Assembly (NCBI RefSeq): GCF_024159085.1 | Contig: NZ_JAMZDE010000001.1 | Coordinates: forward strand, 310,001 to 374,000 | From: Idiomarina rhizosphaerae | GTDB taxonomy: Bacteria > Pseudomonadota > Gammaproteobacteria > Enterobacterales > Alteromonadaceae | Direction: 5' to 3' | Length of the DNA: 64,000 bases | Shown: positions 31,027 to 36,113 of the stretch, piece after piece | How positions within the stretch are numbered: the first letter of the stretch is position 1 | How the letters are laid out: every line of letters starts with the position of its first letter | Position numbers and translations under genes: made by a program | Notes under the pieces: model-generated | Databases searched by the model: none | Seen by the model: the letters and a program-made list of their open reading frames with translations, nothing else | What the model was told of the DNA's origin: nothing

Positions 31027-31057
31027 AAGCCCGGCAACAATGTTGTTGGGCTTTTTT
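31027..31057 (+). terminator. dps terminator
   Basis: AAGCCC pairs with GGGCTT, with inner AACA/TGTT pairing, followed by TTTTTT. It differs at only three positions from the hairpin at 43753. It separates dps from the peptide cassette. Confidence 0.85.
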
Positions 31058-31206
31058 GCCTTTTATAGTATTGCCATAACACTAGATAAATTGTTGCGTT
31101 TTTGTTTTTTGTTTGCTATTCGTAAACTGAAGGCTTTGCGGAGTTCGATAGTACAAAGGCTTCTTGTAGTTTTTAATCCATACATAATCAATAGGAAATA
31201 GATCCA

Positions 31207-31377
31207 ATGGAAAACAACAAGAAACTGTTCGCATTTAAACTGGCGAAAAAGCAAGCTAATCAGGTCAAATCTAAGCCAGAACAATTTAAGGCTCGTGAAG
31301 GTGTCGCTATTGCAGGCTGCACCGATCCTTCAGGACGATTCCTTGTCCGATACAGCGATAATGGCATGTATTGCTAA
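31207..31377 (+). CDS. Putative ATP-grasp RiPP precursor peptide, 56 aa
   Basis: A small gene encoding 56 residues. AGGA lies before the ATG (31192-31195). The first 31 residues form a Lys/Gln-rich, probably helical leader (MENNKKLFAFKLAKKQANQ onward). The last 25 are different in character: GVAIAGCTDPSGRF, then LVRYSDNGMYC. This putative core has Cys38 and a C-terminal Cys56, hydroxyl residues Thr39, Ser42 and Ser50, and acids Asp40 and Asp51, i.e. the side chains that graspetide ligases join as esters or amides. No double-Gly cleavage site is present. A terminator and an ATP-grasp gene follow immediately. The precursor role is inferred from size, composition and position; the product is undescribed as far as I can tell. 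Confidence 0.75.
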   Translation: MENNKKLFAFKLAKKQANQVKSKPEQFKAREGVAIAGCTDPSGRFLVRYSDNGMYC

Positions 31378-31386
31378 AAACGCCTT

Positions 31387-31416
31387 TAAAAGCCCCAGTA
31401 ATTTCTGGGGCTTTTT
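31387..31416 (+). terminator. Attenuating terminator between precursor and ATP-grasp genes
   Basis: AAAAGCCCCAG / CTGGGGCTTTTT with a six-base loop (TAATTT) lies 10 bp after the precursor stop. No clear new promoter is visible before the ligase gene, so partial read-through would yield much precursor and less enzyme, as is common in peptide pathways. Confidence 0.85.
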
Positions 31417-31450
31417 ATACAATTTATAAAAATAATAATAAGAGCTTTTG

Positions 31451-32452
31451 ATGAGTCAAAAACGAATACTTATTATCAGTCATTCTGATGACCTCCACGT
31501 TGACGTTCTAACCCCAATATTAGAACGAAAAGGGCATATCCCTTTTTTCTTGAAACTAGACGCCTTTCCTCGGGATTACGAAATTTTTCATCAGTTCAAT
31601 GATGGTGACTGGACTGGTGAAATTAAAAATCTGATAACCGGAGATTCTGTTGCTATCTCGGAAATAGGCGCCGTCTGGTTAAGAAAAAGTGCCGAGTTTT
31701 CTTATCTCGACGAGCAACTAAGTGAACAAGAAAGAGCTTTTTCTCAGGAAGAAACTAATCATACACTGTTTGGCCTATTCTACGGCCTAGATTGTTACTG
31801 GATAAATCATCCACTAGCTAATCGCCATGCCTCATATAAAGGCGAACAAATGAAGCGTGCAGTTAATATGGGCTTTCTGATTCCACCATCAATTATTACT
31901 AATAGTCCTAATAGAGCAAAAGATTTTAAAAACAGTTCAACAAGTGAGATAGTTTTTAAAACATTATCCTCCCCTCTTCTAGGTGCGGAAAAAATCACCT
32001 CAGAAAACCGCGAAGTTGATGGCCTGAGAACTACAATTATAGACGGGGACTTAAGCGAACTTGATGCTGTAGCCCAACTACCTTGTTATTTTCAGTCGTA
32101 CATCGACAAAGCTTTTGAAGTTCGCGTAACAGTAATTGAAGACAAGGTTTTCGCCGCACGAATTGACTCTCAAACGGATGCAAGAACACGAGTGGATTAC
32201 CGCGACTTTAGCGTCAGTGTCCCGTATCAAGCAATGGACTTACCAAGCGAAGTCAAACACCGCTGTTTACAATTTTTAAAAAGTTACGGACTCGTTTTCG
32301 GCGCACTTGATTTTATAGTCACTCACGATAATGAGTACATCTTTCTGGAGAATAATCCGGGCGGCCAATTTTGGTTTGTTGAACAATTAGTGCCGGAATT
32401 AAACATGATGGAAACATTGGCAGGCAGCTTAATAAAAGGGTTGGAATGTTAA
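31451..32452 (+). CDS. ATP-grasp peptide-modifying ligase, MvdD-like
   Basis: A 333-residue ATP-grasp enzyme. ATP-grasp ligases of the microviridin/graspetide type activate Asp or Glu side chains as acyl phosphates and join them to Ser, Thr or Lys of a precursor. The C-terminal catalytic half shows FEVRVTVIEDKVFAARID, ALDFIV with Asp287, and the metal-binding FLENNPGGQFW (Glu300, Asn302), which closely resembles the ENPxGQW element of MvdC/MvdD. The N-terminal third (VWLRKSAEF, HPLANRHASYKGEQMKRAVN) also follows the MvdD pattern. The ATG at 31451 is used rather than the TTG before it. Its stop overlaps the protease start by 7 bp. Whether it makes lactones, lactams or another bond is unknown. 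Confidence 0.85.
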   Translation: MSQKRILIISHSDDLHVDVLTPILERKGHIPFFLKLDAFPRDYEIFHQFNDGDWTGEIKNLITGDSVAISEIGAVWLRKSAEFSYLDEQLSEQERAFSQEETNHTLFGLFYGLDCYWINHPLANRHASYKGEQMKRAVNMGFLIPPSIITNSPNRAKDFKNSSTSEIVFKTLSSPLLGAEKITSENREVDGLRTTIIDGDLSELDAVAQLPCYFQSYIDKAFEVRVTVIEDKVFAARIDSQTDARTRVDYRDFSVSVPYQAMDLPSEVKHRCLQFLKSYGLVFGALDFIVTHDNEYIFLENNPGGQFWFVEQLVPELNMMETLAGSLIKGLEC

Positions 32453-33312
32453 GCAACGAATCGATATTTGAGTTAGAGAAAACCCGCAATAGCCGAGTTC
32501 TGGTACTTGCTGCCAGTAATTTAGAGATTGAACTGTTGCCAGAACTTTATCGCGTATTACGCTCACTCGACAAAGTAAGAAGACTTGACGTTTTAATTTA
32601 TAGCCGCGGAGGTATTGTTAATGGCGTACGCCGTTTAGCAATGATATTAAGAGAGTACTGTGAACATTTAACTTTTATAGTGCCTCATTACTGTGAATCA
32701 TCAGCGACGTTACTATGCTTAGCGGGAGACGAAATTATTGCTAGTTCAACCGCCATTTTTTCACCTATAGATCCCCAACTCCAAAGCCAGGGTTCAGATG
32801 AGCACAGCACACCTGTAAGTATTTCTTCTCAGGATGTTCGTTTATTTCGCCAAGTTATGAGCGACTGGTTCGAATTAAATGACGCAGAGGCCAGCGTTCA
32901 GGCCGTACAACAGATAGGCCAAGGAATTTTCCCTACAACTTTGACATCATTTTACCGTGCGACAAAGGAGCTTGAGGAGATCGGAATGCAACTTCTAACT
33001 CTCTCATTACCCAAGAAAACCACTGATTTTCGTGCGTCAATCGTTAATAATTTAATTTATGGTTATCACTCGCATAGTTATGCCATATGCGGGGAAGAAT
33101 TATTGCAGCTTGGTCTAAATGTATCGCGAGACTACACTGTTGAAGAGCTAGCTTGGCGTATAGTTGAGGGAATTCGTAGTATTTTAGGCCCAGGAAACGG
33201 CGATACGGCTAGTTGGTGCGATGCCATTATAGCTATTTCAGATTGCCAGATGAGTCGTTGGCGTAACCAGAACAACATATCTGCCGATTGGAAAGAGTCA
33301 CACCAACAATGA
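32446..33312 (+). CDS. SDH/Clp-fold serine protease, likely leader peptidase
   Basis: A 288-residue soluble protein related to the SDH_sah/ClpP-SppA serine protease group (PF01972). The signature block is clear: SRGGIVNGVRRLAMILREY, then VPHYCESSATLLCLAGDEI, then AIFSPIDPQL. Aligned with the usual PHYAMSGGT, the nucleophile should be Ser85 in CESSAT; the neighbouring residues (ESSA instead of MSGG) are atypical. There is no signal peptide or membrane helix, so it acts in the cytoplasm. It starts inside the ligase gene and ends overlapping the MauE gene (ATGA). In this context it is a good candidate for cutting the leader from the modified precursor, since the exporter lacks a protease domain. 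Confidence 0.82.
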   Translation: MLSNESIFELEKTRNSRVLVLAASNLEIELLPELYRVLRSLDKVRRLDVLIYSRGGIVNGVRRLAMILREYCEHLTFIVPHYCESSATLLCLAGDEIIASSTAIFSPIDPQLQSQGSDEHSTPVSISSQDVRLFRQVMSDWFELNDAEASVQAVQQIGQGIFPTTLTSFYRATKELEEIGMQLLTLSLPKKTTDFRASIVNNLIYGYHSHSYAICGEELLQLGLNVSRDYTVEELAWRIVEGIRSILGPGNGDTASWCDAIIAISDCQMSRWRNQNNISADWKESHQQ

Positions 33313-33836
33313 GTTATATAGCACTGTTATCCAAGTATATTGTAACAATAATACTCTTAGTAGGCGCTATCGGAAAACTTAGCGACGTAAAACAGTTCCG
33401 TGAAACCTTAATCTCTTCAATTGACATGCCACACTCGTTAACTTTAATCCTTGCATTTAGCGTTATAGCAATAGAATTTGCTTTAGCTATATTTTTTCTA
33501 ACTTTGCCAGAAAATTTTTTTATTATATCCATTGCCAATTTTTTTCTCTTTCTCGCATTCTCTTTTTTTCTCTTGTTTAACCTACTAAAAAATAGAGTTA
33601 TACAATGTAACTGTTTCGGTAGAAGTGAAGATCCAGTTAATTGGTGGGACTTGGTTAGAAACACTATAATTTTGGGCTTATGTTTAGTTGTCACATTCTA
33701 CTATAATCCAAGCCTAAGCATGCCTTACAACCTTAAACTACTCGTGATTGGCTGCTCGCTTATTTGGGCTCAACTTTTAATCAACCTCCCTTTAATAGCT
33801 TCTATCCTTCGTATAAATTCTAACAGGGTTAGCTAA
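33309..33836 (+). CDS. MauE/DoxX-like membrane redox protein
   Basis: A 175-residue integral membrane protein with about four or five helices. It carries the MauE-type motif QCNCFG with Cys100 and Cys102 after the third helix. MauE is needed with MauD for disulfide formation during methylamine dehydrogenase maturation, and related proteins pass oxidising or reducing power across the membrane. The start is the ATG at 33309 that overlaps the protease stop (ATGA). The next gene encodes a thioredoxin-like partner, as in mauED. It probably oxidises the two cysteines of the exported peptide or recycles the partner; this is inferred. The gene is very AT-rich. Confidence 0.82.
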   Translation: MSYIALLSKYIVTIILLVGAIGKLSDVKQFRETLISSIDMPHSLTLILAFSVIAIEFALAIFFLTLPENFFIISIANFFLFLAFSFFLLFNLLKNRVIQCNCFGRSEDPVNWWDLVRNTIILGLCLVVTFYYNPSLSMPYNLKLLVIGCSLIWAQLLINLPLIASILRINSNRVS

Positions 33837-34408
33837 TGGATTATTTTTTATTAAACCTAATTTTATTCAGTTTAATTATATCTGTAATTCTAAATTTATC
33901 ACTTACCTTATACCTATTTAAATATGTTAGATTACTAAACAAAAATAAACAAGATGCTCCTCCATTAACACTACCTCCAGGGTATATTATTGAAAACTTT
34001 AAAGCCCGGCTAATAAATGATAATAAGTTAATAACTCTAGGAGATAACTCTAGTGTTGTTATATTTTTATCTGAGAAATGCAGGTTATGTCGTAGCAAAG
34101 TTCCGCAGTTAGAGTTTTTGTTACCTGCAGTCGAAAAAGTCGATGTTTCTCTTTGGATCAATTTAATTGACAATGTTTCTGCGAAAGATAGCTTCCTTTC
34201 TGAAAGTCCTCTCATCAAAAAAACTATTTCAATAGATAAAGATCTAATTAGGACACTAAATCCAAGGACAGCGGCGCCATTCTATTTACTTATCGATCAT
34301 GAAAAGGAACTTCAGGCTAGTGGAATGATTGGTGATGCCAATTGGAACAGCTTTATTGACCAGATGGAAAATATATTAAAACAGAACAGCGCTGAACATC
34401 ATGAATGA
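33836..34408 (+). CDS. Membrane-anchored thioredoxin-like protein (MauD/TlpA-like)
   Basis: A 190-residue protein with one N-terminal membrane helix (residues 4-30) and an extracytoplasmic thioredoxin-like domain. The redox motif is CRLC (Cys82-Cys85) in VVIFLSEKCRLCRSKVPQLE, in the position of the TlpA/MauD active site, and TAAPFYLLID supplies the cis-Pro region. It starts at TAATG overlapping the MauE stop. The likely role is disulfide exchange on the peptide's two cysteines outside the cytoplasmic membrane, working with the MauE-like protein. Codon and base composition are unusually AT-rich compared with genes outside the cassette. Confidence 0.8.
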   Translation: MDYFLLNLILFSLIISVILNLSLTLYLFKYVRLLNKNKQDAPPLTLPPGYIIENFKARLINDNKLITLGDNSSVVIFLSEKCRLCRSKVPQLEFLLPAVEKVDVSLWINLIDNVSAKDSFLSESPLIKKTISIDKDLIRTLNPRTAAPFYLLIDHEKELQASGMIGDANWNSFIDQMENILKQNSAEHHE

Positions 34409-36113
34409 AATATTCCGACGTTACGCAATAAAGCCTTTATCATTTTTAAAACCGTCTTTCGGACGATTGACTCTTGGTTTTATAATGATGATAGTAACGA
34501 TTGCCATACAGTTAAGCATTCCCACCGCTATAGCTTACTTCATTGATAACTCTGTCAAAGCGAATGATAATAACTGGCTCACAATTGTAGCTATTATCAT
34601 GATATTTGTTTTAGTTCTCCATGCAGTTGCAACAGCACTTCGTATATATTTATTTGAATCTGCAGGTACTGTTATTGTAACTTCAATTCGCCAACGCCTG
34701 TATCAAACTATCATTTCTCAAAATATAGCTTTTTTTGACCGTAATCGTATCGGCGACTTAAGTAACCGCTTGTCTGTTGACGTTGATATACTAAAAGACA
34801 CCATGACTATGGGGTTAGCAATCGGTTTGCGTTCGCTTATAACCTGTATTGGCGGAGTTGCCTTTCTCTTTATTCTTTCACCTATACTAAGCTTATTAAT
34901 GATTATTATAATTCCTTTGTCTTTTTTTGCTGCTCGCTTTACTGGTAAACACCTTAAAGAAAAATCAAGAGTAGTACAGGAAGAACTAGCCAATTGCAAT
35001 CAATTGGCACAAGAGAACTTCTCTAATATTCGTCTAGTTCACACATTTAATCAGCAAGTAAACTCGATTAAACAGTACGAAGAAGCCACAGAGAGAGCGA
35101 AAAAAGTTTCTTTGTCTAGTTCTAAGCTGCTGTCTGGCTACCAAGGTATCACGACATTTATTCAATATATGGTGTTATTAATTACACTTTGGTTTGGAGG
35201 GCGTCTGGTTTTATCTGGAGATATGACGATTGGCGGATTAACAAGCTTCGTTTTGTACGGGGCAATGGTAGCCATGTCTGCGACCGGGGTTAGTTGGTTT
35301 TGGGGTGAGTGGATGAAAGCTGTCGGAGCAACAGAACGAGTATTTCAACTGTTGAGAGTCAACGTGAAGCAAGACAGGAGCCGCGGATTTGAGGATTCAA
35401 TAGCTTTTCGGGGTGAAATAGAATTCAAAGATGTGTCATTTATGTATCCAGAACGACCCGATATAAAAGCGTTAGATTCATTTAGCTTACACATTAAAGA
35501 AGGTGAGCGCGTAGCTTTGGTTGGCGAGTCCGGAGCAGGAAAATCCACAATTTCTAACTTGCTGCTAGGATTTTATCACCCAAATTCAGGCGAATTATTA
35601 TTTGACGGGGTTGCTGCCCAAAAGATAGATCTTGATAACATTCGAAAGAATATCGCCGTCGTTGAACAAGAGCCAAGCTTATTTTCAGGATCGATAGCCG
35701 ATAATATTCGTTATGCAATACCCGACCGCTTAGTAAGTAATGAAGAGGTCATAGAAGCAGCTAAACAGGCAAACGCACATGACTTTATTTGCGCTTTACC
35801 TAAAGGCTATGAAACTGATCTTGGTGATCGAGGCATGCAGTTATCTGGCGGGCAAAAACAACGCATAGCCATTGCCAGAGCTTTATTGAAAAAAGCTAAA
35901 ATTCTAATTCTGGATGAGGCAACAAGTGCCCTTGATGAGAATAATGAAAATATTATACAAACCGCACTAGACCATCTTATGGAGGGCTGTACAACAATAA
36001 TAATTAGCCACCGTCCTTCTACAATTGAACGTGCAAATCGTATAATTAGATTAGATCGAGGTAAGATTTTAATACCATCCTCAGTTGGATCGCATGAAAA
36101 CCAGGATCTTTAA
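34401..36113 (+). CDS. ABC exporter (fused permease-ATPase), no peptidase domain
   Basis: A 570-residue half-transporter that works as a homodimer. Six membrane helices lie within residues 20-310, followed by the ATPase: Walker A GESGAGKST at 375-383, signature LSGGQ at 481-485, Walker B ILILDEA with Asp505, and the switch His537 (ISHRPST). It resembles MsbA/lipid and peptide exporters. It starts directly with the membrane domain, so the C39 leader peptidase of PCAT bacteriocin exporters is absent, which fits cleavage by the SDH-like protease. It overlaps the thioredoxin gene by 8 bp and closes the cassette. No clear terminator follows. Confidence 0.92.
   Translation: MNEIFRRYAIKPLSFLKPSFGRLTLGFIMMIVTIAIQLSIPTAIAYFIDNSVKANDNNWLTIVAIIMIFVLVLHAVATALRIYLFESAGTVIVTSIRQRLYQTIISQNIAFFDRNRIGDLSNRLSVDVDILKDTMTMGLAIGLRSLITCIGGVAFLFILSPILSLLMIIIIPLSFFAARFTGKHLKEKSRVVQEELANCNQLAQENFSNIRLVHTFNQQVNSIKQYEEATERAKKVSLSSSKLLSGYQGITTFIQYMVLLITLWFGGRLVLSGDMTIGGLTSFVLYGAMVAMSATGVSWFWGEWMKAVGATERVFQLLRVNVKQDRSRGFEDSIAFRGEIEFKDVSFMYPERPDIKALDSFSLHIKEGERVALVGESGAGKSTISNLLLGFYHPNSGELLFDGVAAQKIDLDNIRKNIAVVEQEPSLFSGSIADNIRYAIPDRLVSNEEVIEAAKQANAHDFICALPKGYETDLGDRGMQLSGGQKQRIAIARALLKKAKILILDEATSALDENNENIIQTALDHLMEGCTTIIISHRPSTIERANRIIRLDRGKILIPSSVGSHENQDL

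Follow-up and report, generated by a model that had tools for sequence, protein, structure and literature searches.

A mobile graspetide cassette of Idiomarina rhizosphaerae predicted to make a peptide with an ester ring inside a disulfide

Graspetides such as microviridin, marinostatin, plesiocin and chryseoviridin (CdnC) share an MvdC/MvdD-type ligase and a short precursor that has a hydrophobic leader motif and invariant Ser/Thr and Asp/Glu residues in its core. The published leader motif, Phhx(1,2)h, is present in about half of graspetide precursors, and the enzyme cutting their leaders was unknown as of the 2022 survey (PMC8939145). Since then, the M1 metalloprotease NosP and a C39 exporter domain have been reported for this function; NosP, encoded 0.8 Mb from its cluster, is the only protease described as cutting class I microviridin leaders (PMC13039773). 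Neither of the two is Clp-fold, and the leader-peptidase literature that we searched makes no mention of a Clp-fold SDH protease in this role. As for redox enzymes, MauE, and once MauD, adjoins a Cys-containing candidate precursor in candidate families obtained with decRiPPter (PMC7794033).

The window studied here is a 64,000-nucleotide stretch of Idiomarina rhizosphaerae contig NZ_JAMZDE010000001.1 (assembly GCF_024159085.1, positions 310,001 to 374,000). All six frames of the original prediction were found in place on the plus strand (Table 1). The precursor gene stands apart, separated from the ATP-grasp gene by 73 bases which include a strong hairpin and a T-run, while the five downstream genes overlap one another by 1-8 bases. 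A hairpin element of this kind was found in 22 of 34 other loci (shuffled sequences: mean 1.2, maximum 5); a consensus terminator scan missed the one in the window, though it is visible by folding.

Table 1. Features of the cassette; positions count from the first base of the window
Feature	Positions	Strand	Basis
Acquired block, extent	31057..36107	+	homology breaks against genomes G152 (same genus) and G132; GC shift
Precursor peptide gene, 56 aa	31207..31377	+	homologues in all 44 other loci; those of L063 split
Leader motif LFAFKLA, residues 7-13, presumed ATP-grasp recognition element	31225..31245	+	FAF/FAQ conserved; role by analogy
Predicted core, residues 38-56 (C38...C56)	31318..31374	+	core conservation, 75/75 distinct cores
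Predicted acceptor T39	31321-31323	+	[ST] at C1+1 in 75/75 distinct cores
Predicted donor D51	31357-31359	+	[DE] at C2-5 in 75/75 distinct cores
Terminator-like hairpin with T-rich sequence after it, in the gap before the ATP-grasp gene	31388..31415	+	folding: -18.5 kcal/mol, z = -5.1
Graspetide synthetase-like ATP-grasp ligase, 333 aa	31451..32452	+	PF21068; solved relatives; conserved residues
SDH-type Clp-fold serine protease, 288 aa	32446..33312	+	PF01972; S-D-H residues; no N-terminal membrane helix seen
SDH S85 / D109 / H210	32698-32700 / 32770-32772 / 33073-33075	+	retained in 45/45
MauE-like membrane protein, five predicted helices, CxCFG (C100, C102)	33309..33836	+	PF07291
Membrane-anchored thioredoxin-like protein, CRLC (C82, C85), P148	33836..34408	+	predicted fold, conserved residues
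ABC exporter half-transporter, 570 aa, no N-terminal peptidase domain	34401..36113	+	PF00664 from residue 24, PF00005

Judged by its sequences, the cassette is a graspetide subfamily: it combines an MvdC/MvdD-type ligase with a short adjoining precursor having a conserved leader, S/T and D/E. The ligase matches PF21068, the MvdD pre-ATP-grasp family (59.1 bits vs. a cut-off of 27), and phmmer retrieved the solved relatives CdnC (7mgv, E = 5e-40), an ATP-grasp ligase (5ig8, 4e-36) and AMdnB (7m4s, 3e-32). The claim of a new RiPP class thus proved too strong, because the ligase, like these relatives, is of graspetide type. The ligase stays under the NCBIfam cut-off of every model matched, namely TIGR04187 (218 bits, cut-off 350), the equivalogs MvdD (194.6/475) and MvdC (178.7/425), and the grasp-with-SPASM model TIGR04192 (99.6/230); a SPASM family is absent among the matches shown for the eight proteins scanned (six cassette, two flanking). 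E300, N301 and N302 are kept in 45/45 ligases.

Unlike described graspetides, the cassette has two invariant Cys per core with one predicted linkage, and it adds an SDH protease, a MauE/thioredoxin pair and a C39-less ABC exporter. It may correspond to predicted graspetide group 9, more than half of whose examples have a serine proteinase according to a 2026 survey (PMC13097080), and whose core motifs share one precursor cluster with groups 8 and 11 (PMC8939145). The text of PMC13097080 mentions neither Cys nor MauE nor thioredoxin. The decRiPPter families with mauE/mauD differ in belonging to Streptomyces and in having precursors with at least eight Cys (PMC7794033), whereas the cassette cores contain exactly two. 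The literature searched, mainly non-subscription, yielded no description of a MauE/thioredoxin pair or a two-Cys core in graspetides, nor of this enzyme combination.

The six genes form a conserved unit. Distinct loci number 45, and SDH was the route to every one of them; the precursor, ATP-grasp and SDH genes are present in 45, MauE and thioredoxin in 44, and a co-oriented ABC exporter in 40; on named contigs the first three occur together in 39/39, with both precursors split between frames in one locus (L063). A neighbourhood check of the kind suggested in the original prediction showed that the set recurs with similar small precursors, since wherever another genome had a full-length relative of SDH the set was there too (10/10); nor were ATP-grasp genes of the 45 loci found lacking a nearby small Cys-containing gene, the precursor lying beside the ligase in all of them. 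Strong ATP-grasp matches (521-585 bits) were obtained in 8 of the 394 genomes of the order, the same eight carry a strong SDH, and the next ATP-grasp scores 220. Elsewhere, 0/18 other ATP-grasp loci had a cassette-type SDH, MauE, thioredoxin or precursor, and ATP-grasp was found in 0/5 ordinary SDH loci. For the five larger genes, distance matrices agree in 10/10 pairs (r 0.91-0.95), an agreement due in part to species relatedness. Homology with the window proteins missed the MauE of L024 and the precursor of L010, both of which were found with ORFs, profiles and a motif scan. One locus, L100, has the precursor, ATP-grasp and SDH genes but lacks MauE, thioredoxin and ABC within the 16.8 kb examined, and five Lysobacterales loci, L100 included, are without a co-oriented ABC; the redox pair and the exporter may therefore be replaceable.

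In the window, the cassette looks horizontally acquired. Homology with one same-genus genome (G152) stops at 31056 and restarts at 36108, with genome G132 it stops at 31068, and GC content is 33-43% inside the block vs. 45-50% outside. The cassette is mobile and occurs in dozens of bacteria, including named Massilia, Janthinobacterium and Shewanella strains. Plasmid-borne spread was considered and rejected: the 24 matching PLSDB records all show less than 60% identity (at most 29% among the 15 listed). Phage carriage was likewise discarded, as an IMG/VR scan with ATP-grasp alignment confirmed 0/23 pattern matches. The downstream DUF2891 gene is not counted as a cassette member; it is present in 3/7 same-genus genomes, none of which has the SDH gene.

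Coding conservation of the 56-codon frame is evident from pN/pS values of 0.17-0.54 in 9/9 precursor pairs compared (0.18-0.28 for the window precursor vs. three homologues). The leaders carry FAF or FAQ in 90/90 precursors, preceded in just three by the Pro with which the published motif starts; by analogy with the microviridin PFFARFL motif (PMC8939145), LFAFKLA is presumed to be the recognition element for the ligase. The 90 precursors, a count which leaves out four split L063 fragments and nine precursors from five loci duplicating counted genomes, gave 75 distinct cores, and two loci hold nine precursors each. All 75 fit C-[ST]-x(9-21)-[DE]-x-G-x-x-C(A), have Gly at C2-3 and contain two Cys and no more. 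An AGC[ST] scan contributed to the choice of the first precursors, so the acceptor count is biased, but those of the donor and the last Cys are unaffected. The invariant S/T - D/E pair shows only conservative swaps. Because 11 cores have no S/T/K outside the conserved acceptor and three have no D/E outside the conserved donor, this pair is the likely ester; the two ends are fixed by different cores, 0 cores lacking both. Additional acidic residues are present in 72/75 cores and additional S/T/K in 64/75, so extra linkages are possible. A mature peptide of residues 32-56, as originally suggested, is possible, but conservation favours residues 38-56 as the core, linked through T39 and D51. Overall, the precursor, RiPP and cross-link-plus-disulfide ideas survived the sequence tests made (75/75 cores, co-occurrence and pN/pS).

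On these sequence grounds, we consider it probable that a graspetide with two bridges is made and exported by the cassette, a Cys-Cys disulfide enclosing its one [ST]-[DE] macrolactone. The ATP-grasp ligase would bind the LFAFKLA leader and, as the invariant residues suggest, join the T39 side chain to that of D51 in a single macrolactone. The cytosolic SDH/Clp-fold protease would cut off the leader, perhaps between AG and C, leaving a product with Cys at both ends; the MauE/thioredoxin pair would close the C38-C56 disulfide, and the peptidase-less ABC protein would export the peptide.

The SDH protein matches PF01972, as foreseen (66.1 bits vs. 31.3), and reaches 76 bits with the NF047768 equivalog model, whose cut-off is 250. 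It shares the S-D-H residues with SDH-type Clp-fold proteases, S85/D109/H210 being fixed in 45/45 cassette proteins and common to 34 ordinary PF01972 members, and differs from the latter in that its group is tied to a graspetide ligase. Weak SDH relatives look like ordinary SDH proteins, 5/5 inspected being without ATP-grasp; the remaining 29 weak loci were used for residue mapping only. The fixed residues led us to reject an inactive protease. Removal of the leader in the cytosol is predicted for this enzyme, a proposal supported by the pairing of an exporter that has no peptidase domain with a protease that has no membrane helix. A less probable reading, though one to be taken seriously, is that a protease encoded elsewhere, or one outside the cell, cuts the leader, whereas SDH serves in self-protection (as a decoy or a spare version of the peptide's protease target) or as a partner that the ligase needs. 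Every graspetide characterised to date inhibits proteases (PMC8939145); the serine proteinase of group 9, like similar genes, may be a housekeeping gene duplicated for self-resistance, and partner-dependent graspetide ligases have been reported (PMC13097080). Microviridin leaders are cut by NosP from a distant locus (PMC13039773), and the enzyme acting on a graspetide leader can thus be encoded away from the cassette. The presence of SDH in 45/45 loci fits this reading as well, a point weakened by every locus having been found via SDH. Against it, a decoy or scaffold need not retain every active-site residue, the exporter has no peptidase domain of its own, and the last 7 bases of the ligase gene also belong to the SDH gene.

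MauE (PF07291, 75.7 bits vs. a cut-off of 27) has CxCFG in 44/44, and the thioredoxin-like protein keeps C82, C85 and P148 in 44/44; two Cys per core accompany CxCFG and CxxC in 44/44. The pair resembles MauE/MauD of methylamine dehydrogenase maturation in combining a CxCFG-bearing MauE with an adjacent anchored thioredoxin, and differs in that its substrate would be a two-Cys RiPP and that the thioredoxin lacks a MauD model match: no NCBIfam family, MauD (TIGR02661) included, was found at E up to 1, and PF00578 is barely touched (E 0.016, below cut-off). The predicted structure (pLDDT 92.9) matches DsbE/ResA/TlpA thioredoxin folds, bearing out the proposed membrane-anchored thioredoxin-like protein with CRLC. 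Charge patterns put its domain on the cytoplasmic side in 44/44, the MauE count leaving out 6/44 rows without five predicted helices; as controls, two readable MauD proteins share the pattern (2/6 loci usable, three apparently being in the wrong frame and one having no helix), and 4/19 DsbE rows lean the opposite way, three of them apparently with wrongly guessed starts. This gives a hint that the pair faces the cytoplasm.

DsbE and ResA are reductants, and ResA and CcmG keep cysteines reduced, such that these nearest folds count against a disulfide-forming role. The pair might instead keep the cysteines reduced for another fate, e.g., metal binding or a thioether, which we regard as rather unlikely: the folds DsbE, ResA and TlpA and a domain lying in the reducing cytoplasm speak for it, but the family matches shown for the six proteins give no sign of an enzyme that forms thioethers, and MauE has been speculated to help form the disulfide bridges of methylamine dehydrogenase (PMC7794033).

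The exporter matches PF00664 and PF00005, as expected, with no C39 match in the family scan; 34 homologues are of 543-621 aa. Finally, a RimK-like reaction in which the ATP-grasp protein attaches an amino acid, or some other group, to the small protein without making a macrocycle is highly improbable. A weak similarity to RimK speaks for it; the MvdD pre-ATP-grasp domain, the kinship with CdnC and other solved ligases, and the conservatively swapped S/T - D/E pair speak against it.

Only tentatively do we put forward the whole combination: a Cys-to-Cys product whose terminal disulfide encloses a single ester ring, a cytoplasm-facing disulfide module inverted relative to Dsb, and a Clp-fold SDH protein as leader peptidase. 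Secondary modifications of graspetides are only lately coming to light (PMC13097080). With a cassette that is compact and mobile and whose donor, acceptor and Cys pair are invariant, three questions become directly testable: whether an SDH/Clp-fold protease may serve as a RiPP leader peptidase, what role MauE/thioredoxin pairs play beyond methylamine metabolism, and whether an ester ring and a disulfide occur together in one natural graspetide.

By Pfam, the cassette proteins include one with a pre-ATP-grasp domain of MvdD type and a ClpP-like protease of SDH type, besides MauE and an ABC exporter. The thioredoxin-like protein gave a marginal sequence match (PF00578 at E 0.016) and no NCBIfam match; its predicted structure (pLDDT 92.9) fits the DsbE/ResA/TlpA folds. 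The ATP-grasp protein scored under the cut-off of each NCBIfam model it matched, the top one being TIGR04187 (218 of 350 bits), and obtained 195 of 475 bits with the MvdD model. Its sequence relatives of solved structure carry labels such as CdnC, AMdnB and ATP grasp ligase; we take most of them to be graspetide synthetases, and 5ig8 and 5ig9 to be microviridin ligases.

Positions of the cassette and of related features (first two rows, window; others, named locus)
Feature	Position	Strand	Remark
six-gene cassette	31207-36113	+	ORF reading: 56-codon gene, then five genes mutually overlapping by 1-8 bases
C83 of the SDH protein	32692-32694		two residues N-terminal of presumed nucleophile S85
nine precursor genes, Pseudoduganella violacea	L074:4894-6910		upstream of single ATP-grasp gene
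nine precursor genes, Massilia sp. BJB1822	L075:4892-6910		upstream of single ATP-grasp gene
two precursors, Shewanella sp. HN-41	L063:6442-6914		
oligopeptidase-like gene (720 aa), same genus	L151:1924-4086		adjoins Dps gene, at cassette position
oligopeptidase-like gene (720 aa), same genus	L152:2225-4387		adjoins Dps gene, at cassette position

SDH relatives were searched for in 196 genomes from the family and 394 from the order. A full-length relative (E 7e-52 or better) was found in ten genomes besides that of the window, and all ten share its gene content and gene order. Named genome contigs, scanned with an alignment, yielded 39 loci, in Shewanella, Idiomarina xiamenensis, Massilia, Duganella, Pseudoduganella, Rugamonas, Janthinobacterium, Undibacterium, Luteimonas, Lysobacter, other Lysobacterales, Rheinheimera, Kangiella, Bowmanella, Aestuariibacter and Pseudoalteromonas. 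The precursor, ATP-grasp and SDH genes were present in 39/39, both precursors of Shewanella sp. HN-41 being frame-split past the leader by decay or sequencing error. Five of the 39 duplicate genomes counted before, leaving 45 distinct loci, window included; SDH occurs in all 45 by construction, because this protein was the route to every locus. Of these, 44 also have MauE and thioredoxin, and 40 have an ABC gene in the same orientation. The five loci devoid of the latter are all from Lysobacterales; two have an opposite-strand ABC gene upstream, and one (L100) also lacks MauE and thioredoxin. Two different cassettes, located on separate contigs, were seen in each of two MAGs, JAEUPQ01 (Lysobacteraceae; L079 and L088) and JAHCAU01 (Lysobacter; L086 and L099). 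Residue C83 is fixed in 45/45 cassette SDH proteins, whereas in ordinary SDH proteins (n=34) it is not among the columns conserved at 70%.

None of the seven same-genus genomes in the family sample gave an SDH protein match. In the same-genus genome G152, homology to the window ends at 31056 and restarts at 36108, and between the homologous flanks lies a 720-aa frame, presumably an S9-type oligopeptidase as read from its sequence. In all, a 720-aa oligopeptidase-like gene next to the Dps gene was seen in two same-genus genomes (table). GC content is 33-43% inside the block vs. 45-50% outside. On the simplest reading, the cassette would have arrived as one block, replacing the 720-aa gene.

The loci hold one to nine precursors each, 90 in total, with 75 distinct cores. 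All 75 follow C-[ST]-x(9-21)-[DE]-x-G-x-x-C (with an additional Ala in three) and contain exactly two Cys, while the middle is variable. The acceptor is Thr in 42 and Ser in 33, the donor Asp in 73 and Glu in two. Ser/Thr/Lys is restricted to the conserved acceptor in 11 cores and an acidic residue to the conserved donor in three; no core lacks both kinds of extra residue. The cores free of spare acceptors and those free of spare donors together point to a predicted T39-D51 linkage in the window peptide. Microviridin leaders carry the PFFARFL motif, whereas 90/90 leaders here have FAF or FAQ in its place. All nine precursor pairs compared gave pN/pS values of 0.17-0.54, in keeping with coding conservation of the 56-codon frame. 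Folding revealed a hairpin and a T-rich stretch after the window precursor gene, and a similar element in 22 of 34 other loci vs. a shuffle mean of 1.2; this would fit expression of the precursor above the enzymes.

The RiPP reading also stood when the neighbourhoods were searched by the ATP-grasp protein. Its alignment matched 23 of the 394 order genomes at E up to 1e-10, eight of them at 521-585 bits and the next at 220 bits; these eight are exactly the strong-SDH genomes of the order sample. No cassette SDH, MauE, thioredoxin or precursor was found at 18 ATP-grasp loci of other types (E up to 0.001; up to 6 kb per side), and the core pattern was missing from 31 shorter ATP-grasp loci searched; in the window it occurs once, within the precursor. 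For the five larger genes, pairwise distances correlated at r = 0.91-0.95 in all ten gene pairs (0/1000 permutations each), a correlation partly due to shared species history. Two compared genomes, G873 and G402, each have three separate graspetide-type ATP-grasp profile matches, some with internal stops.

MauE retains CxCFG in 44/44, and thioredoxin likewise retains CxxC and P148 in 44/44. In all 44 thioredoxin anchors, Lys and Arg are absent ahead of the single helix, and one to five of them follow it. Five helices were predicted for 38 MauE rows, and in 38/38 of these the basic residues cluster in three segments, namely the first loop, the loop holding CxCFG and the C-terminal tail (means 3.6, 3.6 and 1.5 vs. 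0.1, 0.6 and 0.4). By the positive-inside rule, both redox active sites would therefore face the cytoplasm. DsbE is periplasmic, and its control anchors (n=19) mostly show a tie or the opposite pattern (N>C in 10, ties in 5, C>N in 4). The two readable MauD control proteins match the cassette pattern, which may thus be a trait of the whole MauD/MauE type. The substrate of MauD/MauE is periplasmic. Among MauD-family matches from other Pseudomonadota, L178 (above the model cut-off) and L180 (below it) have this basic-after-helix pattern, which is at odds with a periplasmic domain.

A survey of predicted graspetides, more than 20,000 of them in 43 groups (PMC13097080), reports a serine proteinase in over half of the group 9 examples. 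Group 9, which is defined in other papers, may be the present group. The survey text names no MauE, thioredoxin or Cys; that of PMC8939145 no MauE, SDH, ClpP or thioredoxin; and passages of a RiPP leader protease review (PMC10885120) no ClpP or SppA. The combination is not described in the literature searched, which leaves out most subscription papers. We conclude that the cassette represents a genuine graspetide subfamily, unusually clean and apparently uncharacterised, in which the two nine-precursor loci, with their differing cores, constitute a natural core library.
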